Assembly: GCA_015179025.1 (NCBI GenBank)
Contig: WHUX01000098.1
Span: 124,001-188,000 of the forward strand
Direction of reading: 5' to 3'
From: Terfezia claveryi
Taxonomy: Eukaryota; Ascomycota; Pezizomycetes; Pezizales; Pezizaceae
Length of the DNA: 64,000 bases
The position numbers and the translations under genes are program-made. Below, piece after piece: positions 3,062 through 57,020 of the stretch. The notes beneath the pieces were generated by a model. That model searched no databases. It had not been told where the DNA came from and saw only the letters and a program-made list of their open reading frames with translations. Numbering within the stretch: position 1 is the stretch's first letter; each line of letters opens with the position of its first letter.

Positions 3062-6000
3062 ATGGATGCCCCTCCATCAACACCGCCCTCCCCCTCGCCG
3101 TCGCGTGCTCGCGCTCCTCTAGGCATATCACCGCCAGACTCCATCTCCCCAGGCCCACCACCACATTGTCACGAGACCTCATCCGCCTCAAAATCAAAAC
3201 GCCGCGCAATCGGCATCCACATCAAATCCTTCTTCGAGTCCACTCGCCCTACTCTCTGGACCCTCGCCAACTTCACGTCCCACTGCCACTCATTCGCTGG
3301 TAAAGATGACGCCTACGTCTGGGCAAACGACAAGGTCTACTCCTTCTACATCGACCATCTGAATAAACTGCTTTTGGAGCGGTCTCCGCTCGCAACGGAG
3401 GCGAAGATTAGACAGTTGTTGCAGAGGGCGCAACCACGGAGAAATACGAGGCTGAGGAAAAGGGGGAGTGAGAAGGAGAAACCGCAGGCAGGAACGCAGG
3501 ACAGTAGTAGGGTAAGTGTGGATTTATTGAGTATTTTTTCAGTTATCTCTTGCGTGGTGTGGGTGAGGTGGTCGACGGAGCGTGGTATTTTAATTTCTTG
3601 GAGATATACTCCCCTCCCCCCCCTTCTTGTCAAGATGGCCGTTGAGGCTTGCGGTGTAGCGCCTGGTTGACATATTCTACATTGTTCTTCTTCTTCTCCT
3701 TCTTCTTGCGATCTCCGACTGTCATTCGCTGGAAAGCCACCACTCTTCGGTGGCTTTGGGAAGCGGAGCCATGACATTGTTTAGTTAACTTGCCATTAAA
3801 TTGGTAAGATGCAAAAGCTAGTCCAGTCTGTCCGTCTTTCAGTCATGTTCTCATTATCATAGCTATCTCTGGAATGTCTATATGGGAAGTGGCTGTATGG
3901 TGTTGACGGTTTCTTCAGTTAACTTACTCCTCATCTATACCCCAAACCCCATCCCGTGATAGGAGGAACAAGAGGCTGCAAGAAGAAGCATCAAGTTAGC
4001 TTGCCATTTCTTTGTACTTGGGAAGAGGCTCATTGCTAGTCGTTTGGTTACGCTTGCCGTAATGTTCCTTGGAAGGGGGATGTTATGTGGAAGAAGGCTG
4101 AATGGCGTTGACGGTTTCTTCAGTTAAACTTACTCCCCATCTATACCCAAATACTCCCCATCCCGTGATAGGAGGAGCAAGAGGCTGCAAGAAGAAGCAT
4201 CGAGTTAGCTTGCCATTTCTTCGTATTTGGGAAGAGGCTGATTGCTAGTCGTTTGGTTACGCTTGCCGTAATGTTCCAAGAGGGATGTTATGTGGAAGAA
4301 GGCTGAATGGCGTTGACGGTTTCTTCAGTTAAACTTACTCCTCATCTATACCCCAAACCTACTCCCCATCCCGTGATAGGAGGAGCAAGAGGCTGCAAGA
4401 AGAAGCATCGAGTTAGCTTGCCATTTCTTTGTATTTGGGAAGAGGCTGATTGTTAGACGTTTGGTTACGCTTGCCGTAATGTTCCAAGAGGGATGTTATG
4501 TGGAAGAAGGCTGAATGGCGTTGACGGTTTCTTCAGTTAAACTTACTCCTCGTCTATACCCCAAACACTTACTCCTCATTCCGTGATAGGAGGAGCAAGA
4601 GGCTGCAAGAAGAATCATCGAGTTAGCTTGCCATTTCTTCGTATTTGGGAAGAGGCTGATTGCTAGTCGTCTGGTTACGCTTGCCGTAATGTTCCTTGTA
4701 AGGGGGATGTTATGTGGAAGAAGGCTGAATGGCGTTGACGGTTTCTTCAGTTAAACTTACTCCCCGTCTATACCCCAAACACTTACTCCTCATTCCGTGA
4801 TAGGAGGAGCAAGAGGCTGCAAGAAGAATCATCGAGTTAGCTTGCCATTTCTTCGTATTTGGGAAGAGGCTGATTGCTAGTCGTTTGGTTACGCTTGCCG
4901 TAATGTTCCAAGAGGGTGTAATGTGGAAGAAGGCTTAATGGCGTTGACGGTTTCTTCAGTTAAACTTACTCCTCATCTATACCCCAAACCTACTCCCCAT
5001 CCCGTGATAGGAGGAGCAAGAGGCTGCAAGAAGAAGCATCGAGTTAGCTTGCCATTTCTTAGTACTTGGGAAGAGGCTCATGGCTAGCCGTTTCTAGTCG
5101 TTTGGTTACGCTTGCCGTAATGTTCCTCGGAAGGGGATGTTATGTGGAAGAAGGCTGAATGGCGTTGACGGTTTCTTCAGTTAAACTTACTCCCCCTCTA
5201 TACTCCCAAACTTTCTCCCCATCTCCGTGATAGGAGAGGGGTAAGAGGCTGCAAGAAGAAGCATTGAGTTAGCTTGCCATTTCTTCGTATTTGGGAAGAG
5301 GCTGATTGTTAGTCGTCTGGTTACGCTTGCCGTAACGTTCCTTGGAAGGGGGATGTTATGTGGAAGAATGCTGAATGGCGTTGACGGTTTCTTCAGTTAA
5401 ACTTACTCCTCGTCTATTCCCCAAACACTGACTCCCCATCCCGTGATAGGAGGAGCAAGAGGCTGCAAGAAGAAGCATCGAGTTAGCTTGCCATTTCTTT
5501 GTATTTGGGAAGAGGCTCATTGCTAGTCGTTTGGTTACGCTTGCCGTAATGTTCCTTGTAAGGGGGATGTTATGTGGAAGAAGGCTGAATGGCGTTGACG
5601 GTTTCTTCAGTAAAACTTACTCCCCATCTACTTACTCCCCATCTCCGGTGATGGTAGGAGGGGCAAAAGGCTGCAAGAAGAAGCATTTGAGTAAGCTTGC
5701 CATTTCTTCGTATTTGGAAAGAGGCTTATTGCTCGTCGTTTGGTTACGCTTGCCATAATGTTCTTCGGAAGGGGGATGTTATGTGGAAGAAGGCTGTATT
5801 GCGTTGACCGTTTCTTCAGTTAATCTTACTCCCCATATATACTCCCAAACTTTCTCCCTATATCCGTCATAGGAGGGGGCAGGGCTTGGGTTTGTATATT
5901 ACATCAAAGACTCCTGGGATTGTCCATCAGTGACCGTTCTTATCGCGGGTTTACGGGGATGACATATACAGGATACATATCATATACATCATATATCTAA

Positions 6001-34225: not shown

Positions 34226-34407
34226 TATTGATTAACTACTGGTATACTGGAGAGGTACTTAGTATATAGATAACCCTCGTTATATATATATCGTCTAGAC
34301 GGGGGAAGCACTTAGGATAGGAGTTAAACCTGAAAATAATGAAACGTCTATCAATGAAGTTCTTGAGCAAAAATGTATATTCTTTTGGAGATTAGATTGA
34401 ATATGAG
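33795..34407. repeat. ~513-bp tandem duplication, second copy split by element D
   Basis: Copy 1 is about 33795-34307 (GGGGTTAAACCTGAAAATAA, ... TTCTTTTGGAGATTG...). Copy 2 starts about 34308, is interrupted at 34407 by element D, and resumes at 43382 to about 43795 (GTCTCGATGCATATAAAATA, AGATCAATATTATGCCAACC). Both carry the right end of the Tc1-like element; the second ends at about 43713. Confidence 0.84.
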
Positions 34408-35088
34408 TGTAATGGAGAACGTTATTTCATTGCTTATATAATTGATTATATACTTTTGTATTTCCTATATTACTACTATGTTTATGTAACTAAGCCTCTC
34501 GGTTGAAGGACTAGCCTTCTACCACCTCCTATTGCTTTATAAGCGTCCATAGCACGCGGAATCTGCCATGGGAAGTTCCATGGCACTTGCCATATGAAGA
34601 CACCCTCATTATGGCCGCGTGACCTCTGTTTAAGGAGTGTGACTCATTACTATGGCCACATGACCATCGTTTATGGCGTGTGACTCATTACTATGGCCAC
34701 ATGACCCCTTTTGTACAGCGCACCACCTTCTGGTGTGCCACCCTTTATTGTATTTATTTCCTTAGTCATCAGATCTCAGAGGAGTATAAATAGGCCGCTG
34801 GATTCCCTCTGGAATCCACAAGAAAGACAAGAAGCAACCAAGCAAGCCTTCAGAGCAAGCAAGCCTATATTCCGATCAGATCAAGATCATATAGCTTAGA
34901 TAGCACAAATCATATAAGATAGATTACACCAGTTAATTACTGTTCCCTTCGGGAACGTCCCACATAGTAATCTCCCTACCTTTCTGAGGTCTTACCTCAG
35001 CAGAACCGAAATACACAAACGTCCGTGCCTACGGATATAGATTGTATAAACGGTACCGAATGAATACTGTCTAGTACCATTCATTACA
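34408..35088 (+). repeat. Element D 5' LTR
   Basis: Starts TGTAATGGAGAACG and ends ATTCATTACA. It carries tandem blocks of CTCATTACTATGGCCACATG (about 34648-34705), a TATA box and small hairpins such as TTCCCTTCGGGAA downstream of the presumed start of transcription. Confidence 0.96.
34785..34792 (+). promoter_or_regulatory. TATA box in element D 5' LTR
   Basis: TATAAATA in the context GGAGTATAAATAGGCC, placed mid-LTR at the expected U3/R side. The same box is at 43073-43080 in the other LTR. Confidence 0.75.
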
Positions 35089-35355
35089 TTTTTTTTAACT
35101 CACTTACCTAATCTTTACTCTTAAATCCAAGGCCTAATCAACCTTCGGATACCTTTATTACACTCATGCAAGTGTATACAATTCGACACCCAAATGCACA
35201 TATAAAATCAATATCGTTATTCAACTAGCTAGCTAAAAAAAAATCCAACAAACAAGACATCAGACTCTCAACTGCAGTACATCAACAAAAGACTTAGAAG
35301 CAAGCTAAGTAGAGCTTTAACGGGCAGTGGTATCCTACATTAAACAATCCCACTC

Positions 35356-36102
35356 TCATTCATAACACTTTTCCCAATAAGATCGATAACTCATCTTGCA
35401 CTCCTGGCAACCGCCATTACATCTGTACCTATAAATCCAGTACACTATTGAAAAACCGGCCCCCCAGGTCCCAGGAATAATTGGTCTAAACAACCAAGCG
35501 TCACAATCCCAAGGCTCAAATCTCGCTGCCTCCACTGCAGCCATTTCCTCCAGAAAAGAATTACCTCCATCAGAACCTTCCTTAGGCCCAGACATCTCTA
35601 CCAATACCTCTGCGCCCCCAACGTCTACCTCAACACACCAATCAGAAAACGTGACACTCTTGCCGGAAGAACTAGAACTAGATTCTAGACCAGTAGACGA
35701 AGAAAAACCAGGACCATAAGAAACATCAGGATCCTGACATCCAGCCTCACCAGCCTCGTGAGCCACCGAGCCAACAGAACCGTCAGTCGAACAGAGATCA
35801 TAAGGATCATCAGCCACCACACCATCAGCACAGAAAGGTGCCAAAGAAGAAAAGTAACTTGACGATCGTATCGCATAACCAGCTGCATTTGGTTGCGGAC
35901 AGACGACAAAATCAGACATAATGGCATCTGAACTTAGTAAGAAGACTAAGAGGTCGAGATGGTTAACTATGTTACCTAAAGATATTAAGAAATTAGTAGA
36001 AGAAACTCCCAGAAAGACCAGATTTATAATTCCTAACACAGAAGGGGAAATAAATCTACCTATCGATATAGAAATAGGAGAACCAGATAGAGCAGGAACC
36101 AA
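35356..36102 (-). other. Antisense open frame in the element D leader
   Basis: An uninterrupted 248-residue frame runs antisense through most of the leader and into the first ~180 bp of gag. It has a Ser-rich centre (GLESSSSSSGKSVTF) and an aromatic/Cys-rich C-terminus (IVYWIYRYRCNGGCQECK). No family was recognised. It may be a chance by-product of base composition, but its length and the absence of sense-strand coding over 35356-35920 deserve mention. Confidence 0.3.
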
Positions 36103-37612
36103 ACTATATTTTAGTATGGCTTTACCTCTCGCACCAGAAGAATTTTGGAACAGACATCTTCCAACAATTGAGGAGATTTTGAAATATACTCGCTCAATGG
36201 GACATGCCCAACAGTATCATCCTGATGATACTCGACTCTTGATGGAAGCCATAGCAAAACACTACTTATGGCTAACGCCTTACCCATTCAAAGAAGAAGA
36301 CTTAGAAATGAACACATTTTTAAGTAAAGAATTAAGGAAACCTGTTGTTCCACTTTTAAGGAAACCGAATTGGATAATAAATAACTGGGAAGAAATAATG
36401 GCATTCATGATGAGTGGCACTCATCTAGAAGAATCAGCACATACCGCGGAGGATTTTTTCAATCCTAGCAAAGAACTTCCAGGAGCGTTCCTGAGAACAC
36501 CAAAAGATCAATCGAAAGGCAAAGGTCGAGCACCTGAGACACCAGAAAGGAGGACTGGGTCAGCCAAAGAACCAGACGACAAAGACCAACCACCAGAAGA
36601 TATAGAATTACCAGAAGACGATGATGATCTAGATACAGGACTAGACCAACAGAAGCAGAAAACACAAGGAGGAGGACGAGACCCCGATGATAGCGGAGAT
36701 GATAGCTCGGACTCTGATAAGGCATCGTCAGTTGCAAGTCAAACTCTTAAAAGAAAACCCAAACGAGGAAAATCAGTTGAACACCAGCAATGGGAATCTA
36801 CAACAGGAATGGTTACAACGGGTAACCATAAAGCAACGAATGCTTTAAAAGGAATAAAGATTGATATGCCAGAAAAATTAAGAGGAGAAGACAAAAAATG
36901 GCAAGACTCACAATATTTTGACTCTTGGGCCACAGCAATACAACGTTGGTTTGTTCTCAAAAGAATAGATTTAGAAGGCGCTTCAGCTCTGGAAATTGTT
37001 GGATTCAGAATGGAAGGGAGCGCGCTCACTACTTATAATCAATTCCTAAGAGAAAAAGGAAAGAATGCGACATTCTTTGGATTCATACTAGCGCTAAGGG
37101 ATTTTCTGATACCCTCTACTAGTAAGGACATTTTGTGGAAACGATGGGAGACAACCACACCCTACAAGGACGGATGTCACATAGGAATCAAACAGTTTGC
37201 CAACTGGCTTACTGAAATGCAAATCAAATTGATTGACAAGGATGGTAACCAATCAATATCGCAGGAAGTAAAAAGAAGAAAGTTTCTTAATCACCTGCCG
37301 CCATATATGTCAGCTACATTAATTCCTTTAATTAAAGAAGAATGGTCATATGATCAGCTCGTGCATCAAGTGGAGTCATATGAAGCTTCCAAAATAGATA
37401 ATGCCCCACCATCCACAACAAATACATCCCAACGACAACACCCTCGGAATGAAAATCGAAGTCACGGTCCACGCAGGGACCAGAATCAACGACAAAAAAC
37501 AGGATTTAATCCTAGCAGCAATCCCAACACCAAACACAGAAAATCGGAAGGACTCAGATTGGGACACCATCACAAAAAAATTGGATCAGAAGACGAAGAT
37601 GCAATTAATTAA
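35921..37612 (+). CDS. Element D Gag
   Basis: A 563-residue frame starting at the first ATG after an 832-bp leader. The N-terminal ~170 residues are unlike standard Gag and may be lineage-specific. Residues ~190-300 are acidic, charged and low complexity (PEDDDDLDTGLD; DSGDDSSDSDKASS). From ~320 comes the conserved capsid region (KWQDSQYFDSWATAIQRWF; LWKRWETTTPYKDGCHIGIK). The zinc knuckle CLWCWNPGHSYKDC lies just beyond the stop in another frame (37624-37665), so a one-base indel near 37530 has probably cut it off from Gag; programmed frameshifting is the alternative. Confidence 0.85.
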   Translation: MASELSKKTKRSRWLTMLPKDIKKLVEETPRKTRFIIPNTEGEINLPIDIEIGEPDRAGTKLYFSMALPLAPEEFWNRHLPTIEEILKYTRSMGHAQQYHPDDTRLLMEAIAKHYLWLTPYPFKEEDLEMNTFLSKELRKPVVPLLRKPNWIINNWEEIMAFMMSGTHLEESAHTAEDFFNPSKELPGAFLRTPKDQSKGKGRAPETPERRTGSAKEPDDKDQPPEDIELPEDDDDLDTGLDQQKQKTQGGGRDPDDSGDDSSDSDKASSVASQTLKRKPKRGKSVEHQQWESTTGMVTTGNHKATNALKGIKIDMPEKLRGEDKKWQDSQYFDSWATAIQRWFVLKRIDLEGASALEIVGFRMEGSALTTYNQFLREKGKNATFFGFILALRDFLIPSTSKDILWKRWETTTPYKDGCHIGIKQFANWLTEMQIKLIDKDGNQSISQEVKRRKFLNHLPPYMSATLIPLIKEEWSYDQLVHQVESYEASKIDNAPPSTTNTSQRQHPRNENRSHGPRRDQNQRQKTGFNPSSNPNTKHRKSEGLRLGHHHKKIGSEDEDAIN

Positions 37613-40327
37613 AGACAAGAAATGTCTATGGTGTTGGAACCCTGGACACTCCTACAAGGACTGTAGGAAACGAAAAAATAAGGTACCCATGCGTACAGCC
37701 GCACAAGATTTAGCTATGCCGATAGCTACTAAGTATAAAAACAACAAGGATAAAATCAAGGAACGACCCTTGTCAAGACAGGTACCAGATTTTAGTAAGG
37801 TATTCGTTAGAGCTAATGAACACCCCGCACTAGCTTTAATTGATCTCCAAACGAAGGGAGGAGACTTAATCAATTCTCAATTCGTACACCTGTACAAAAT
37901 ACCGACTAGAAGTATCGAGAAGAAATCATTAAGTACTGCAATTAAAGGCTCAAAGGGAACGATAGACAAAGCTTGTACTATCAAACTTGATTGGATAGGT
38001 TATGTAGAAGAACGAACGTTCTATGTAGCTCATTTGACTGGATGGGACATGATACTAGGAGAACCTGCTCTCAGCAAAGTACAAGCAATAATTCCTGCCC
38101 ATCAGGAACCAGTTACTATCCAACCGGAAAACATTCCACAATTCCAGCTAAGTGTATGGAAGGGATCTAGAACCATAGCGAATGGTATAAGATCAGCGTA
38201 TACACAGGTCAGCTGTGAATCAGTCACAGATTATAGTGAACCGGATAATTGGGAAAATATTAGTGATGCGGAAGAAACTGATTCAGAAAGAGAACTCGTG
38301 ACAGCTGTTTCAATGGTACAGAAACAATTCAACCCTGTAACGGAGTTTCCCTTATTATTTCCCAAGACAATTCCATGGGAATTACCCCCACTAAGAAAAA
38401 TTAATCACTCTATCAAACCAAAAGCAGGAGCTACTTGGATACCAAAATGGCGACCCTCAGGAAATCGATTTAGACAACAAATCCATGACAAATTAGTCGA
38501 AGAAGAAGCATCAGGTCATATATATAGAGTAGAAAATGACACAAATGCTGTAGTCATGTTCACTATCCCTAAACGAGATAAGCCGGAAGAAGCCAGACAT
38601 GTCAATGATTGTCGAGACCGCAATTTAGCTGTCGAACCGGACTACACCCCATTGCCAGATATCAATGAAGCTATTGAACTAGTAGCGGAGAATCCCATTT
38701 GGACTAAGGTCGACTTAGCAACGGATTTTTTAATATCAGGAACGATGAAGAATCTGAGCAACACTCTACCTTTTTATGTCACATGGGATATTTCAGAAGT
38801 AGAGTTATGCAACAAGGGGATCATAACACACCTGCTACCATGGTTCGCTTATGCATGAAATTTTCAAGGACATGGTCTATAAAAGTTTAATCAGCTATAT
38901 TGATGATATTATTATATTCTCTAAAATGTATGAAGAACATGTAGAATTGTTGAAGAAAGTACTTCAAGTCTACAGGACAAGAAATTTATCTTAAAGAAAG
39001 CAAATGCCAGTTCTTTACTCTAAGATTGGAAATCTTAGGACACGTTTTGACATCAGATGGATTACATGTAGACCCGAAGAAGAGGACTACTATATTAACA
39101 TTTCCAACTCCTACAAGAAAAAAGGATCTTAGAGGATTCCTTGGAATCGTTAATTATCTCAGCAGATTTATTCCTGACTTGGCATCGTATGCAAGCACCC
39201 TGTCAGAACTGCAAGGAGAAGCAAAGAAATGGGAATGGACAGATACTCATAACGCAGCGTTTGAAAAACTTAAGGAACTCGTAAATTCCCCACATGTTTT
39301 AAAACCCTGGAATAATGAATCTACTGAGCCCAAATATTTAGTCTGTGATGCTAGTGATGTAGGACTAGGATCTTGGATAGGTCAAGGACCGTTGACGCAC
39401 ATCAGACCATCATGCTTCCACTCTAGAAAATTTAATCCAGCACAACTCAATTATCCTACCTTTCAAAAGGAATTATTAGCGATTATTGACTCATTAAAAT
39501 TTTTTGAAGCACAATTGAGAGGTCACAAGTTCACTATCCTTACCGACCACAAACCGTTAGTAACCTTCCATACTCAAACGCCTGCAAGTCAAAAATTGAG
39601 GCGATGGCAAGATTACCTAATGGAATTTGATACAGACATACAGCATACCGCAGGAAAGGAAAATTTGATAGCAGACGCTCTATCAAGAAAGCATAAATAC
39701 TTGGACACTCCCACCACCGAGGACGATTATATCTCCAACAGCATCGATCCTCCTAACCGTACCTACAACCGCAACATCTCTACCAACGCTTTAAGAACTT
39801 TCTACTCACCAGAAACCTCTACTCAGAACAATATGGTTTCTCGCGGAGCTATCAATTTCAAGCATGTCGACTGCGACTTCAACAAATGTCGTGGAAGAGC
39901 CGAAGAACTTGGACACCATATCTTCTGTCCATACTTCGAGGGCATACAGGATGAAGAAAGCGAATATGATATGATGAAGGAAGAAGAGTCCTCAGACGAT
40001 GAGACTCTATCCACTATACCGGAAGAAGTTTTCAGCGGGTATGATCGTGTACCCAATATAAACAAGAACAAACCCTTAACAGTTCTTGGACTAAATTATA
40101 GGCCTCCATCTTCTGAAAGCACACAACAAAAAACCCTCGCTCCTGAAGAAGCGAAAGAAATTGCTATCGACCTGGCTCATAGCAATTGGCAACAATACAA
40201 AAGGATGTACTGGTCCTTTTGCCGCGATTTTTACTGTCCAGTTCATGGCAGCTCCCACGCCATGAACAACCGCATGTTCACCATTGAAACATGTGCAATT
40301 GCAACCACCACGGACATGGCAGTTTGA
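37530..40327 (+). pseudogene. Element D Pol: protease-like, RT, RNase H and an extra Cys/His segment
   Basis: In frame 3 after the Gag frameshift come the zinc knuckle, a degraded retropepsin-like region (ALIDLQTKGGDLINSQFV, where DSGA is expected) and the start of RT (WTKVDLATDF) to the stop at 38858. The RT then passes through other frames: MGYFRSRVMQQGDH in frame 2, and MHEIFKDMVYKSLISYIDD in frame 1, with catalytic YIDD at 38896-38907. The frame from 39026 gives the rest: thumb (GHVLTSDGLHVDPKK), RNase H (CDASDVGLGSWIG; TDHKPL) and HTAGKENLIADALSRK. A ~200-residue acidic, Cys/His-containing extension (DCDFNKCRGRAEELGHHIFC; WSFCRDFYCPVHGSSH) continues the frame to 40327. At least three frameshifts make it non-functional. 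Confidence 0.88.
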
Positions 40328-40981
40328 ACTGTGACCTGACAGCCTCAGTTCTTAAGAAGGAGAAGGAATTCTTACGACTCGTATTGGGCATATCTTATCC
40401 GCAAATGAGCCTCAAAAGGAACTAGCACCAGTACAACAAACGCCAGCTTATCCACCTCCACCAGCTCTCAGCCGTGAAGAAGCTATCCAGGAAATCAGAG
40501 AATGGGCAAAAAGATGGATTGCCAACAAGCCGACACAACCCACTCTCCAACCCAACATTCAGTTCAGTAACCCTACCGAACAGATGAGCAACCGACAAAT
40601 GGAACAGGAGATCATGAATACTCCTGTTGCCCCACAACAACCATGGAATGCACCTCAACAACCAGCTGCAACCGCTAGCAGCAGCAACGCAATTCCAATC
40701 AACACCGCTGCCGTCACCACTCATTCTAAAAAGCGAGTAGCCATTGACGAAGATCTACCCTCTTTCATTCAAGACACCAAGACCTCCCGATAGCGTTGTG
40801 ATTTCTGTAAGTTCCAGGACATAATGCTTCTACATGCAAGGAGAAGAAACCCACCATCAATGACTTCAACACAAGGATCGAACCGACCCTCAACAAGCTC
40901 ATTGAAGAGAAGCACATCAGCGATGGATTTGAAGACGACAAGGACTACTTCATCACATACTAGCTTGACCAAGGAACAGGT
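40328..40981 (+). other. Element D spacer between RNase H and integrase
   Basis: Encodes Pro/Gln-rich low-complexity pieces (PPPPALSREEAIQEIREWAK; APQQPWNAPQQPAATASSSN) in broken frames, ending before the integrase frame. It appears to be a continuation of the non-canonical insert between RNase H and integrase. Confidence 0.6.
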
Positions 40982-42667
40982 ATGAAAGCCGCATATCAAT
41001 CATGCATGAGAGTATGTCCTATCTGGAAGAACTATTATGATACCTTTGTGAATCGTAAGGATCATAGAAGAAAAGACGGATTTTTGTATGTCAAGAACCG
41101 ACAAGGACAATGGAGACTAGTCTTGCCCTCTACTTTTAACATCGAAGGTAAGAACTATCTCGAATTGGTTATTAAAGACGCACATGAAGCAACCGCTCAT
41201 GGTGGTATTGAAAAAACGATGAAATATCTTACTGACCGATATGATTGCCAGTCCTTTGCAGAACCAACTAAGGACTATATCAGAAGTTGTGATACTTATC
41301 AACGGACAAAGTATTCCAACAAGGCACCACTTGGACTCGTAACCCCATTACATGTACCAAGCAGGCCATAGACTGACATATCGATGGATTTTCTTAAAGT
41401 AGCACCTGTGTTTACTAAGTGTTCAATTTTGTAACCGAATATTCCTATTGAAGAAGATCATGTAGTTTGTATTTCACGACTTTGGACGATTGTTGATAGA
41501 CAATCAGGATTCAAGTTTCTTATTCCTGTCTCAGATAATTTCACAGCAGAACAATGTACTGCTACCTTTGATACTCATGTAGTCCCGACTATGGGATACC
41601 CTTTCTATATTGGTTTTGACCGTGACACTCTTTTTATGTCAACGCACTTTCAAGATTGGGCTAGGAATAAAGGAATCAAGTCGGAACCATCCACCGCATA
41701 TCGTCCATGTGCAGACGGACAATCGGAAATTGTGAACAAAGAAATTCTACAAGTAGCAAGAGCCTGTAAAATCGAAGGATTTGATTGGCTACAGAAACTA
41801 CCAGAGATACAGTTGAAACTTAACTCTAGGTATAATGCCGCTAGACAGAATAGTCCCTTTTCCACACTATTTGGATTTAATGCACATCTTGGCGTATCGA
41901 TACTTCCATACCCCATTAATGCATATGTACCAGCAAATGAACGTCATGAGGTAACATCTAAAAACCTATATGACGCCAAGAAGACTCAAGCATCTCAAGC
42001 GAACAAACGACTACCCAATACAGCCAAATTTTCAGTCGGACAACAGGTTATGCTTTTCTCAGAAAATATCAACCTATCGAACATCTCACCCAAACTCAAA
42101 CCAAAATGGCTAGGCCCATTTCCCATTATTTCTAGTAATCGGAAACGCAATAATTATAGCCTAGACCTATCCAGTCAACCTGACCTCCACCTCATATATA
42201 ATACTTTTCATATCAGTAAACTTAAACCCTACTATAAAAACGATCCTACCCAGTTCCCTCATAGACAAACTCAGGAACCAGGACCAATTCAAGACGATCG
42301 TTATGAAGTTGAAAAGGTGTTAGAATTCAGAACAGCTCCTCGAACTGGAGAAAGACAATATAAGGTCAGATGGCTTGGATACTTACCTAAACATGATTCC
42401 TGGGTAAATGCCAAGAATATCACTACCGAAATTCTTCAAGACTTCTGGACGACCGGAAGTATGGAAGACACATTCAAGAGACGTCGAAGAACTAAAGGAA
42501 AACAAGGACCACGAACCAGAGATAAGACCCGAGCTCTCATCCAACAAGAACGAGATAGAATCATGAGTCAAGGAAATACTAAGGATATTCATGTTAATGC
42601 TAATGTATTAACAATGCATCAAATCTTAGGATGTATGGAAACCAATATGGCAGAGCGAAGGAAGTAA
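40982..42667 (+). pseudogene. Element D integrase with C-terminal chromodomain
   Basis: One reading frame runs from 40982 to 42667, broken by a TAG at 41369-41371 (where Trp of the PWxxISMDFL motif is expected) and a TAA shortly after 41430. The HHCC zinc region has HEATAHGG but its last Cys is Tyr (SCDTYQ for CDxC), a G-to-A change. The core shows the three acidic positions: IVDRQSGF, GFDRDTLFMS and DGQSEIVNKE. After the GPY-like region (PKWLGPFPI) comes a chromodomain at about residues 455-510 of the frame (DRYEVEKVLEFR; YKVRWLGYLPKHDSWVNA), which in such elements targets integration to methylated histone H3 chromatin. The C-terminus is basic and Arg-rich. Confidence 0.9.
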
Positions 42668-42695
42668 GGATAGGAAATCCTTGTATGTGGGGAAG

Positions 42696-43376
42696 TGTAA
42701 TGGAGAATGTTATTTCATTGCTTATATAATTGATTATATACTTTTGTATTTCGTATATTACTACTATGTTTATGTAACTAAGCCTCTCGGTTGAAGGACT
42801 AGCCTTCTACCACCTCCTATTGCTTTATAAGCGTCCATAGCACGCGGAATCTGCCATGGGAAGTTCCATGGCACTTGCCATATGAAGACACCCTCATTAT
42901 GGCTGCGTGACCTCTGTTTAAGGCGTGTGACTCATTACTATGGCCACATGACCATCGTTTATGGCGTGTGACTCATTACTATGGCCACATGACCCCTTTT
43001 GTACAGCGCACCACCTTCTGGTGTGCCACCCTTTATTGTATTTATTTCCTTAGTCATCAGATCTCAGAGGAGTATAAATAGGCCGCTGGATTCCCTCTGG
43101 AATCCACAAGAAAGACAAGAAGCAACCAAGCAAGCCTTCAGAGCAAGCAAGCCTATATTCCAATCAGATCAAGATCATATAGCTTAGATAGCACAAATCA
43201 TATAAGATAGATTACACCAGTTAATTACTGTTCCCTTCGGGAACGTCCCACATAGTAATCTCCCTACCCTTCTGAGGTCTTACCTCAGCAGAACCGAAAT
43301 ACACAAACGTCCGTGCCTATGGATATAGATTGTATAAAGGGTACCGAATGAATACTGTCTAGTACCATTTATTACA
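42696..43376 (+). repeat. Element D 3' LTR
   Basis: Same length as the 5' LTR (681 bp), with about nine substitutions by eye, and followed by the target duplication ATGAG. Confidence 0.96.
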
Positions 43377-46011: not shown

Positions 46012-46013
46012 TG

Positions 46014-46240
46014 CATCACCAAAAATATTATTTGCGTCCTGTGCGTCCGGACGCCTGGGACGCACAGGATGCATGGGAGACAAACTCAAGATCAGGATGC
46101 CAAATGCTCGGCGCGTGAGCGTCCGGACGCACTCGGACGGTGCTCGAGCGGTGCTCGCGCGCCTGGGACGCAACACATGCGCTTTGAAGATGCTCCCTCC
46201 TCTTGGAAGCAACATGGAACGGGCTGCTCGTCCCCAACGC
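46014..46240. repeat. Left subterminal GCGTCCGGACGC repeats
   Basis: The palindrome GCGTCCGGACGC or close variants occurs repeatedly within 230 bp (for example 46043-46052 and 46118-46130), with GGGACGCACAGGATGC nearby. The right end (48250-48460) has the same motif in more mutated form (GTCCAGACG, GTCCGGACGC). Subterminal motif clusters of this kind often serve as transposase binding sites; that role is inferred. Confidence 0.75.
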
Positions 46241-46454
46241 TATAGGTTCTACCGCTGGCGTTGCTAACGGATAGCCCACAATCGCTCTGTTCTACAATGC
46301 ACATCCGCTCACCACTTGCATGTACGACAGCCAGGTACGTAGCCACTATTGCAGCCATTGAATATGCACATAGCAGAAATATCCATTGTATTCGCTAATA
46401 ATTATATACACAGAAGTAATAGATATATATATAGAGCATGCAATCGCTGCTCCA

Positions 46455-46620
46455 ATCGCACTAACACTCGCTCTAATACTCGCACTAATACTCGCCCTAA
46501 TACTCACTCCAATACTCGCTCTAACACTCGCTCCAATCCTCGCTCTAATACTCACTCTAATACTCGCTCTAATACTCGCCGTAATACTCGCTCCAATAGT
46601 CACTCTAATGCTAGCTGTAA
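46455..46620. repeat. 12-bp satellite, left arm
   Basis: About fourteen copies of a CTCTAATACTCG-type 12-mer (variants CTCCAATACTCG, CACTAATACTCG). The inverted counterpart lies at 47830-48000. Confidence 0.92.
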
Positions 46621-46924
46621 TGTGCTGGGATAGAGAGCGAAGGGAAAATGCACGGGGAAGGGAGGTATATATACAGGAAAACGATAGTTGCCAAGGCCGA
46701 CTGCTAAGGCCGACAATTTAGACTTTCCGAGGACAATGAGATAAGCGATAACAAGAGAAGTGGCATGACCGTGACCAATGGCGCTCAGCCCCCTTTCGCC
46801 CGCGGGTGCCATACTATCCAATGCCTGGCCTGGTAATAGTCATATTGGGAAATCGTAGTCGTTGTATGGAGATATGTGCGGAGTTCACGCTTTGTGATAT
46901 GTTTCATAGGAATCCATGCATTCA

Positions 46925-47520
46925 CGGGCTTATATATATATATAAGCGAGAAACTGGAGCTTTTGGAGACTTATATATATATATGTGAGAAACTCATGCT
47001 TTTGGAGACATATAAGCCCGCGAATGCATGGATTTCTCGCATATATGTATATATATGTCTCCAAAAGCATGAGTTTCTCACACATATATATATATATATG
47101 CTCGCGAATGCATGGATTTCTCGCATATATGTATATATATGTCTCCAAAAGCACGAGTTTCTCGCACATATATATATATATATGCACGCGAATGCATGGA
47201 TTTCTCGCATATATATATATATGTCCCCAAAAGCACGAGTTTCTCGCACATATATATATAAGTCTCCAAAAGCACGTGTTTCTCGCACATATATATATAT
47301 ATATATACGCGAATGCATGGATTTCTCGCATATATATATATATGTCCCCAAGAGCATGAGTTTCTCGCACATATATATATAAGTCTCCAAAAGCACGAGT
47401 TTCTCGCATATATATATATATATATGCCCGGGAATTCATGGATTTCTCGCATATATATATATATATGTTCCCAAAAGCACGAGTTTCTCGCACATATATA
47501 TATATATATGCCCGCGAATG
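46925..47520. repeat. Modular TA-rich core of the foldback element
   Basis: Alternating modules X (GCGAATGCATGGATTTCTCG) and Y (CTCCAAAAGCACGAGTTTCT) are separated by TATATATA runs. The two left-most Y modules are inverted (AAACTGGAGCTTTTGGAGAC), giving a switch of orientation near 47010. Open frames on both strands, up to 197 codons, result from repetition (YIYIC-type peptides) and are not considered genes. Confidence 0.92.
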
Positions 47521-47829
47521 CATGAATTCCTACGAAACATACCATAAAGCGTGAACTCCGCACATATCTCCATACAACAACTACGATTTCCCAATATGAC
47601 TATTTCCAGGCCAGGCATTGAATAGTACGGCACCCGCGGGCGAAAGGGGGCTGAGCGCCATTGATAACTATCCTGCCACTTCTCTTGTTATCCCTTATCT
47701 CATTGTCTTCGGAAAGTCTAAATTGTCGGCCTTAGCAGTCGGCCTTGGCAACTATCGTTTTCCTGTATATATACCTCCCTTCCCCGTGCATTTTCCCTTC
47801 GCTCTCTATCCCAGCACATTACAGCTAGC

Positions 47830-48000
47830 ATTAGAGTGACTATTGGAGCGAGTATTACGGCGAGTATTAGAGCGAGTATTAGAGCGAGTATTAGAGCGAG
47901 GATTAGAGCGAGTGTTAGAGCGAGTATTGGAGCAAGTATTAGGGCGAGTATTAGAGCGAGTGTTAGTGCGAGTATTAGAGCGAGTGTTAGTGCGATTGGA
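47830..48000. repeat. 12-bp satellite, right arm
   Basis: Inverted counterpart of the left satellite: AGTATTAGAGCG units with variants AGTGTTAGAGCG and AGTATTGGAGCG, between GCTAGCATTAGAGTGACTA and GCGATTGGAGCAGCGATTGC. Confidence 0.92.
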
Positions 48001-48473
48001 GCAGCGATTGCATGCTCTATATATATATCTATTACTTCTGTGTATATAATTATTAGCGAATACTATGGATATTTCTGCTATGTGCATATTCAATGGCTGC
48101 AATAGTGGCTACGTACCTGGCTGTCGTACATGCAAGTGGTAAGCGGGTGTGCATTGTAGAAGAGAGCGATTTGGGGCCCTGGTTCAGCAACGCCAGACAT
48201 GGAACCTATAGCATTAACAACCTCAATTGAGTTGTTGATGCGATAGGAATGAACTCTGACATCCAGACGTTGAGCTTATGTCAACCACCGTCTGGACGGC
48301 TATTGTTGCCCCAATGGCGTCGGGATTGTATTGCGAGCAGCGCAGGGCCCTAGTTGCGTCTGGATCGTAATGCAATACCCCGGGGCGTCCAGATGCACAG
48401 GACGCACAGGATGCAAAATCGCGTCCGGACGCTTGGTGCTGCGTCCAGATGCCAAATTTTTTTTCCTGATGTG

Positions 48474-55255: not shown

Positions 55256-57020
55256 AGATCAGGAGATCACCCTAAAGGTGGGGATGAAAGGCTGAGGTAC
55301 CAGAATCAAGTGGTACTGAAATCAGAAAATCTCGACCTGGCGGCCAATACTCTTGCTGACGCTGACGCCAGAAATGACCTCCTTCTATAGTTATGACAGG
55401 CACATGCAAAGGACCCCCTAGTTACAGATATAATCGTTGTAGTGGAATCTGGACAGCATCGCTATACCAAGATTTCCCTGGCCAATTGTACAACTCAGAA
55501 CGGTCTTCTCTACCATCTGGACTGTCTCTATATACCTGCAGACGATAAGCTATACCTGCGATTAATTAAAAAACACCATGACATACTAGCAGTGGGTTAC
55601 TCTAGAGTGGCTAAGACATTAGAGTTACTGTCGAAGCAATATACGTGGATTGACCAACGGAAGGAAGTGGAGTGGTACATATGGAATTGCCATGTCTGCA
55701 AGCATGCCAAACCTACCCGCCATACTCCTTATAGTACCCTAAAGCCCCTGGAAGTCTCAGAATAACCCTGGCAATACCTAACTATGGACTTCATCACCGG
55801 ATTGCCAGAAGACTCAAGATTCAATACCATCTTGATGGTAGTAGATCGGTTAACAAAAATGAGGTATATGATACCCTGTCAAGACACCTGCTCGGCCCCC
55901 GAATTGGTATCCTTCTACCTGAATAATGTCTTCCATTACCATGGACTCTCAGGATCGATTGTCTTAGACCATGGCCCTCAGTTTGTTGCTGACTTCTGGA
56001 AAACATTCTGTAAGCTGTTGGGTATTGAAGTACATCTGTCTATAGCATACTACCTTCAGACTGATAGCCAGTCAGAACATATGAATGCTATTATGGAGTA
56101 ATATTTGAGGGCATACATCAATTACTAGCAGAATAATGGGGTTTCATTGCTAGCTACCTATGAATTCTCTGCCAACAGCCACTTCTCTAAGACCTTGAAG
56201 ACCTCCCTATTCCTAGCCAATTATAGCTGGCACCCTCGGTTCATAGACTCTCTAGTACTTCTGTACAAGGCTAGGGATAATGCTCCAGCTAAGGAGTTCA
56301 CCACGCAGATTTCTGAACTTCACTCTACCTTGAAAGCCGAGCTAGTACATGTGCAAGCCAAGCAAGCTAAATATGCCAATGGATCACAGTTGCCAGCCCC
56401 CAAGTATCAGCTAGGAAATAAGGTGTGGCTCTCTAGCTGGCACTTCCGGATGGAATGGCCATCTCGCAAGCTCGACCACAAGTTCCTAGGTCCATTCGAG
56501 GTGTTGGCTGCTATGGGCACTCATACCTATCGATTGAGGTTCCCCAAGGATATCAAACACCACTTGGTTGTCCATGTATTGGAAGTTGAGCCTGCAGCAG
56601 ACAACCCCCTCCTAAGACAGAAGTATCCCCCCCTTCTCCCATAGTGGTCGAGAGTGAGGAGGAGTGGGAGGTCGAAGAGGTATTGGACTCGAGGAAGAGG
56701 TACGGTCATCTGTAATACAAGGTTAAATGGTTAGGGAATAAGGAGGCTACTTGGTAACCCACAGAGAACTTGGAGAATGCGCAGGATTTGGTCGCCCTGT
56801 TGCACTAGTAATACTCAAGGAAGCCTTGCCCAATGGAATGATGTTGTACCTTTTGAGAATCATACAGTATGGTCCGTTCGACTCTCATTCTTCTTGTTCT
56901 TCTTGTTGTTTAGAGTTGGAATCATTGTTGTTGCCCTTATTGTTGTTTTCTATGTTGATTTTGCCAGTTGTCGTGCCTAGGCCTCCTAGTTGCTAGAGCT
57001 CTAGCCTAACGGGGAGATAG
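55256..57020 (+). pseudogene. Element B integrase and chromodomain
   Basis: Contains the uninterrupted insertion-site sequence AGGAGATCAGGAGATCACCC (55251-55270), then the zinc region (HHDILAVGYSRVAKTLELLS; WNCHVCKHAKPTRH, with one His changed to Tyr), the core (MDFITGLPEDSRFNTILMVV; QTDSQSEHMNAIME) and a chromodomain near 56650-56800 with two TAG/TGA stops. After it, up to the polypurine tract, is 3' UTR. Confidence 0.88.

Follow-up and report, generated by a model that had tools for sequence, protein, structure and literature searches.

The present study analyzes a 2458-bp insertion at positions 46014-48471 of the window, which is the whole 64,000-nucleotide stretch of DNA that was analysed. 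The insertion is nearly mirror-symmetric, has no recognisable gene and lies in a Gypsy-type retroelement whose RNase H domain adjoins it. It starts with CATCA and finishes with TGATG (ends CATCACCAAAAA / CATCAGGAAAAA), and its 2-bp target-site duplication (TSD) reads TG on the + strand and CA on the other. The empty site is preserved in a sister retroelement, where the alignments of the two flanks meet cleanly, with an overlap of just the 2 bp that are duplicated. All of these features, the ends, the duplication and the empty site, had been described in a sequence-only reading of the same DNA and were borne out. That reading had also placed GCGTCC clusters in the outer parts of the element, and within the element these words are indeed confined to the ends, with exact counts of 6 GCGTCC, 6 GGACGC and 3 GCGTCCGGACGC in the ends, 0, 0 and 0 in the interior, and 5, 7 and 0 elsewhere in the window. 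Other features of the window include a Gypsy-type element with a chromodomain, bounded by direct repeats of 683 bp with 98.7% identity (34406-43376) and likely a young LTR insertion, and a 214-bp tandem repeat of 9.4 copies (3891-5876). Pfam analysis of the other open reading frames (ORFs) of the window found retroelement pieces only.

The two inverted arms (46236-46907 and 47531-48215) are identical at 637 of 672 aligned positions (94.8%), and the alignment upholds the earlier claim of an inverted structure. The mirror 12-bp satellites, the TATA-bearing block in each arm and the TA-rich core of x and y modules, all proposed from the letters alone, were likewise recovered (Table 1). Arm-to-arm identity is not uniform, being 72.9% at element positions 223-270, 97.7% at 271-442 and 95.1% at 609-894, so that the description of the arms as near-identical holds for their inner parts (95-98%) and fails for the outermost segment. 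Two stop-to-stop frames of 180 and 199 amino acids cross the repetitive core and look like repeat translations. Inspection of the element's ORFs found no Plavaka transposase (PF18759), and an RNA gene was considered and rejected, as all 48 Rfam matches, located at 46892-47537 in the TA-rich core and its edge, were to microRNA models and below gathering scores.

Table 1. Features of the palindromic element and its empty site (positions in the window; L052 is the autonomous partner described in the text)
Feature	Position	Strand	Remark
Left TSD copy, TG	46012..46013	.	Single TG in the sister's empty site
Left end CATCACCAAAAA..., GCGTCC/GGACGC cluster	46014..46145	+	Common with L052 (132 bp, 90.9%)
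Outermost 48 bp of left palindrome arm	46236..46283	+	Side-specific, no exchange
Inner left arm	46284..46907	+	Exchanges with right arm
12-bp satellite, left copy	46456..46621	+	13.8 units
91-bp TATA block, left copy	46654..46744	+	W, A and C types agree at 96-97%
TA-rich core of x/y modules	46908..47530	.	3 reverse, 19 forward (fuzzy match)
Inner right arm	47531..48167	-	Mirror of 46284-46907
91-bp TATA block, right copy	47695..47785	-	98.9% to left copy
12-bp satellite, right copy	47818..47995	-	14.8 units
Outermost part of right palindrome arm	48168..48215	-	Side-specific
Right end ...TTTTTTCCTGATG, GCGTCC cluster	48383..48471	-	Common with L052 (89 bp, 91.0%)
Right TSD copy, TG	48472..48473	.	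2-bp target-site duplication
Empty site, sister retroelement	55260..55261	.	Overlap of aligned flanks equals the 2-bp duplication

Copies of the element were sought in the assembly (72.6 Mb, 794 contigs). With its left 237 bp as query there were at least 40 scored matches (the best 40 of 264 candidates), and a 23-bp end pattern, with at most 2 mismatches allowed, matched 94 times, compared with 0 for the reversed control; these matches are mostly of the window's own W type (CATCACC) and of an A type (CATCAGC). Among 40 stretches around W-type matches, 10 were without a second end, 2 were duplicates and 2 adjoining ones were merged to one element, leaving 28 W-type elements with both ends, the window's included. 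Both five-base tips are intact in 23 of the 28 and the other approximately 5 are one base off; for a few copies the end was set at a mutated terminal base, and the right end of one autonomous copy (L053) was read as TGAAG. Together with 2 A-type palindromes (from 3 A-type stretches) and the 3 autonomous elements described below, this gave 33 elements in which duplications could be scored. A perfect 2-bp duplication was found in 31 (11 different dinucleotides; binomial P about 2e-35 at an expectation of 1/16), a 3-bp duplication in none, and the two elements without a matching duplication were L030 and L034. Perfect duplications occur in 26 of the 28 W-type elements, each in different flanks. 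Mobility, which had been proposed earlier, is therefore strongly supported by dozens of copies, varied 2-bp duplications and the empty site. The 8.3-kb copy L030 was examined as a candidate autonomous partner and rejected, being of W type with an LTR retroelement nested inside. Another W-type copy (L009) has, in its left arm, a tandem duplication of the TATA part of the conserved block.

The palindromes extend beyond the W and A types. When 3 mismatches were tolerated, a 26-mer taken from the inner arm matched 514 times (control 0), which, assuming two matches per element, gives an estimate of roughly 250 elements. Among the 100 matches listed, 60 belong to 30 pairs that converge at spacings of 0.6-2.9 kb, and 60 of the 100 are away from any listed W or A end. 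The one locus of this last kind that was read, L058, has a left half with an end of its own (CATCAGCAAGAAATCG, C type) and the module order of the window element; its right side is known from the convergent 26-mer alone. Three further end types were sampled. In one of them (L055) the arms are 865 bp long and 92.8% alike, with a 23-bp mirror satellite, a related core and one end in the sequence read, and the TATA block is absent from the part read. The others, L056 and L057, have other CATCA ends; with about 3 kb of each compared with itself, no inverted repeat was among the top 8 self-matches of either. L051 has an A-type end and matches the A palindrome in its first 378 bp only. Two end families thus show the complete palindromic plan and two others a part of it, and it was not recovered in every family sampled. 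On contig C84 (11408-13604), two right-end matches with 1 and 2 mismatches point outward 2.2 kb apart, possibly an element with one end exchanged.

An autonomous partner was found on contig C699. This 8375-bp element (L052) has the CATCA and TGATG ends of the window element, a TA/TA duplication and an intact 806-amino-acid stop-to-stop ORF that matches the Pfam Plavaka transposase PF18759 (E 1.5e-70). Outside the two ends (Table 1), its only matches to the window element are of about 30 bp or less. A second copy, L053, is 92.7% identical with its frame broken. The third autonomous element, L054, is of A type; its pieces are 72-80% identical to L052, three long ones 75-77%. The window's W ends are 74.6-76.3% identical to those of L054, and the ends of the A palindrome are 80.5% and 93.0% identical to L054 compared with 77.6% and 86.0% to L052. 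Judged by these identities, the ends of palindromes and autonomous elements pair by type. Searched with the L052 protein, the whole genome gave 60 reported matches, that of L052 included, and there are 85 public relatives, the named ones from Tirmania, Kalaharituber, Terfezia and Morchella. For a protein encoded in the window, 3 relatives were found, of which the single named one is from Peziza echinospora (43%); from these names a Pezizomycete is the likely host. A second Plavaka transposase group, about 50% identical to that of L052, has at least 8 stop-free matches of 700-701 amino acids on contigs such as C33, C446, C112, C786, C645, C88, C19 and C794, and is likely a young, active family.

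PlavakaB has been described as a member of the CACTA-related CMCT clade with CATCA and TGATG termini and 2- or 3-bp duplications (Kojima 2025, PMC12730594). CMCT transposases carry a C(2)C and an H(3-4)H motif, and the L052 protein has both, as CPVC at 225-228 and HLILH at 499-503. As the window element has the termini and the duplication of PlavakaB and lacks a transposase gene, it is classed, from its termini, its duplications and the transposase of its partner, as a non-autonomous, foldback-like PlavakaB passenger. The sequence-only reading had been unable to name a superfamily with certainty; PlavakaB can now be named, through ends 91% like those of a Plavaka-encoding element and 2-bp duplications, and the genome search with the ends that this reading had suggested found both other copies and a partner with an intact transposase ORF and common ends. 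The likeness to PlavakaB as reported (PMC12730594) thus comprises the termini, the 2-bp duplications and a Plavaka-encoding partner in the same genome, and the differences are the missing transposase gene and a palindromic interior unrelated to that of the partner. Subterminal GCGTCC clusters are common to the ends of the window element and L052, and would be putative binding sites of the L052 transposase. Mobilisation of the window element in trans by a PlavakaB transposase is likely; the active source may be an element other than L052.

Some PlavakaB relatives in this genome may carry a further gene. For three of the four listed ends of the form CATCAGGAAAAAAAATTCTGCGTC (on C31, C319 and C774), there is a Tet_JBP match of like orientation at a distance of 5.7-6.9 kb; the match on C774 is below the family cut-off and none was reported at C757. 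On C31 a Plavaka transposase match lies between the end and the Tet_JBP match. This suggests a TET-carrying PlavakaB in this likely Pezizomycete genome; section 3.3 of PMC12730594 reports only Helitron and IS3EU for TET in the context of Pezizomycetes. A TET/JBP gene in L052 was considered and rejected, as none of 18 reported matches is on its contig.

Of the segments compared between end families, the 91-bp TATA block is the best conserved. In left arms its identity is 0.96-0.97 for W with A, W with C and A with C, compared with 0.73-0.88 in the ends, 0.48-0.92 at element positions 133-282 and 0.76-0.87 at 283-442, the alignment being approximate in the weakest of these segments. Directly beside the block, identity is 0.75-0.86 in the satellite and 0.56-0.84 in the strip just outside. 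Rfam gave no match for the block. A coding function was rejected: none of the six frames is free of stops over element positions 641-860, with one frame open for the last 62 codons, and the 10-bp and 1-bp gaps in A-type copies also disfavour it. Read outward, the block has a doubled GTCGGCCTT, then TATATATA and a pyrimidine-rich stretch, an arrangement that we take to resemble a fungal promoter. From conservation alone we infer that the mirror blocks may be a functional cis element, most likely a promoter pair. The main rival to selection is that the block is alike through recent swapping of interiors between end families, which we regard as a serious contender at somewhat under even chances. 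Consistent with swapping, the inner arms of W and A have a mean identity of 0.89, compared with 74.6-76.3% for W ends and the A-type autonomous element, long pieces of the two autonomous elements are only about 75-77% identical, and recombination between arms is evident. A swap would, however, be expected to carry neighbouring sequence with it, and the local conservation of the block, well above that of the satellite and the outer strip, counts against it.

Recombination between arms was analysed in 27 W copies with 5000 shuffled pairings. At element positions 223-270, arms of the same side are 0.934 identical and arms of opposite sides 0.725. Further in, side is no longer distinguished: identity is 0.933 within and 0.931 across sides at 285-442, and 0.945 and 0.944 at 609-894. 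The two arms of one copy are more alike than this (0.951 and 0.957, respectively), a value reached by 0 of 5000 shuffles in both inner segments, and neither ignoring transitions nor excluding four near-identical copies altered this outcome. In 60-bp windows the excess for own pairs had P of 0.002 or less in 9 of 10. For the outer segment the own-pair P was 0.33 with all sites, with a slight excess (P 0.02) when transitions were ignored. Exchange among the inner arms is therefore supported, and the tips and outermost 48 bp keep their side identity; the homogenisation between arms that the sequence-only reading had suggested stands for the inner arms, whose own pairs exceed shuffled ones, and not for the ends and outermost 48 bp. 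Nearest-neighbour and tree counts, made after six short block matches were dropped (four of the two A copies, one of L029 and one of L030), agree in direction. In block 223-442 the arm's own partner is the best match for 2 of 54 arms, and the arms are sisters in 1 of 27 copies. In block 609-894, with A copies included, it is the best match for 11 of 58 arms (18 of 58 without transitions), with sister arms in 7 of 29 copies. Homogenisation is thus partial, because the own partner is best for just these few inner arms.

The polarity of the core is also variable. By fuzzy module counts, 13 of the 28 W-type cores are forward-rich, 8 reverse-rich and 7 mixed, and the core is wholly reverse in both A copies. 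Polarity does not track the tree of ends, a tree with long, poorly resolved branches. Sorting arms by core polarity instead of side restored no difference (0.953 versus 0.951 at 609-894), so that inversion alone is insufficient and conversion is needed. An alternative explanation could be that the arms are alike from recent inverted duplication alone, with no exchange between them, as the 95-98% likeness of the inner arms in the window copy might imply. This appears improbable: the A family shares the palindromic interior in spite of different ends (73-88% like the window's by segment), own pairs exceed shuffled pairs while same-side and opposite-side identities are equal in the inner arms, and core polarity varies between copies. 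The earlier suggestion of recent formation by inverted duplication is accordingly unsupported.

Most differences between copies are transitions, and ignoring them raises same-side identity in block 223-442 from 0.934 to 0.979, which makes C-to-T decay of some kind plausible. The earlier reading had spoken of surrounding RIP. The flanks have TpA/ApT values of 0.84 and 0.77, the element minus its core has 0.91 and the sisters have 1.0 and 1.13, and a second dinucleotide index is 1.22-1.38 throughout; these weak indices do not support heavy RIP, and what may be kept of the claim is C-to-T decay of some kind.

Long inverted arms with internal tandem repeats, as present in the window element, are a foldback hallmark (PMC4079207), and it could be argued that the element belongs to another superfamily (Mutator-type Foldback, P-type Galileo or KDZ) and is like PlavakaB at its ends only. 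We consider this very improbable given ends 91% like a Plavaka-encoding element and 2-bp duplications in 31 of 33 elements, compared with the 8-10 bp reported for Tetris (PMC4079207) and 8 bp for the KDZ element Zisupton (PMC12730594), lengths seen in none of the 33. Tetris, in the account of PMC4079207, is likewise a non-autonomous foldback element with tandem repeats in its arms and end portions common with another element; no autonomous partner was found for it, whereas the window family has a 2-bp duplication and an identified partner. The nearest precedent for arm exchange is Galileo, of the P superfamily in Drosophila, for which recombination and conversion are inferred both between arms and between copies (PMC3573991), and which also has long, internally repetitive inverted arms. 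It differs in transposase superfamily and host, and in the window family exchange is bounded: the ends stay as they are, the inner arms have lost their side identity, and the polarity of the core varies. Among the papers listed in a literature search, which is no proof of absence, there was none on palindromic or non-autonomous Plavaka elements. From the comparison of copies it is scarcely credible that misassembly, with two contigs collapsed or mirrored, produced the palindrome, a doubt raised in the sequence-only reading: palindromes are a common assembly hazard and several copies end at contig ends or without a second end (10 of 40 stretches), but the flanks differ among the 28 W-type elements that have both ends, the duplications are near-universal and varied, the arms are not identical to each other and the empty site is clean.

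Patterns detected make it highly probable, in our view, that the element is a palindromic transposon with no recognisable gene, mobilised in trans by PlavakaB, with inner arms kept alike by recombination. The transposase would recognise the common ends, excise the element and integrate it through cuts staggered by 2 bp. After events such as excision, or a break in the palindrome, the inverted arms would act as templates for each other in homologous repair; one arm would then be converted to the sequence of the other, and at times the interior would be inverted. Exchange that reached the tips would give two left or two right ends, and mainly products with one left and one right end would move on. 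More speculatively, and in our opinion with the chances against it, the element could be a self-homogenising cassette that outlives any PlavakaB lineage, with an invertible TA core, at least four end families, TATA blocks selected as divergent promoters or for another cis function, and tips barred from exchange so that transposase recognition can keep changing.

A genome with an estimated 250 palindromes and an intact partner ORF can be used to probe the origin of foldback elements, their persistence and the exchange between their arms. Arm recombination becomes measurable and mappable through the sharp transition from arms that exchange to ends that are fixed. Finally, the locally conserved TATA block opens the possibility that a gene-less passenger keeps a functional cis element.
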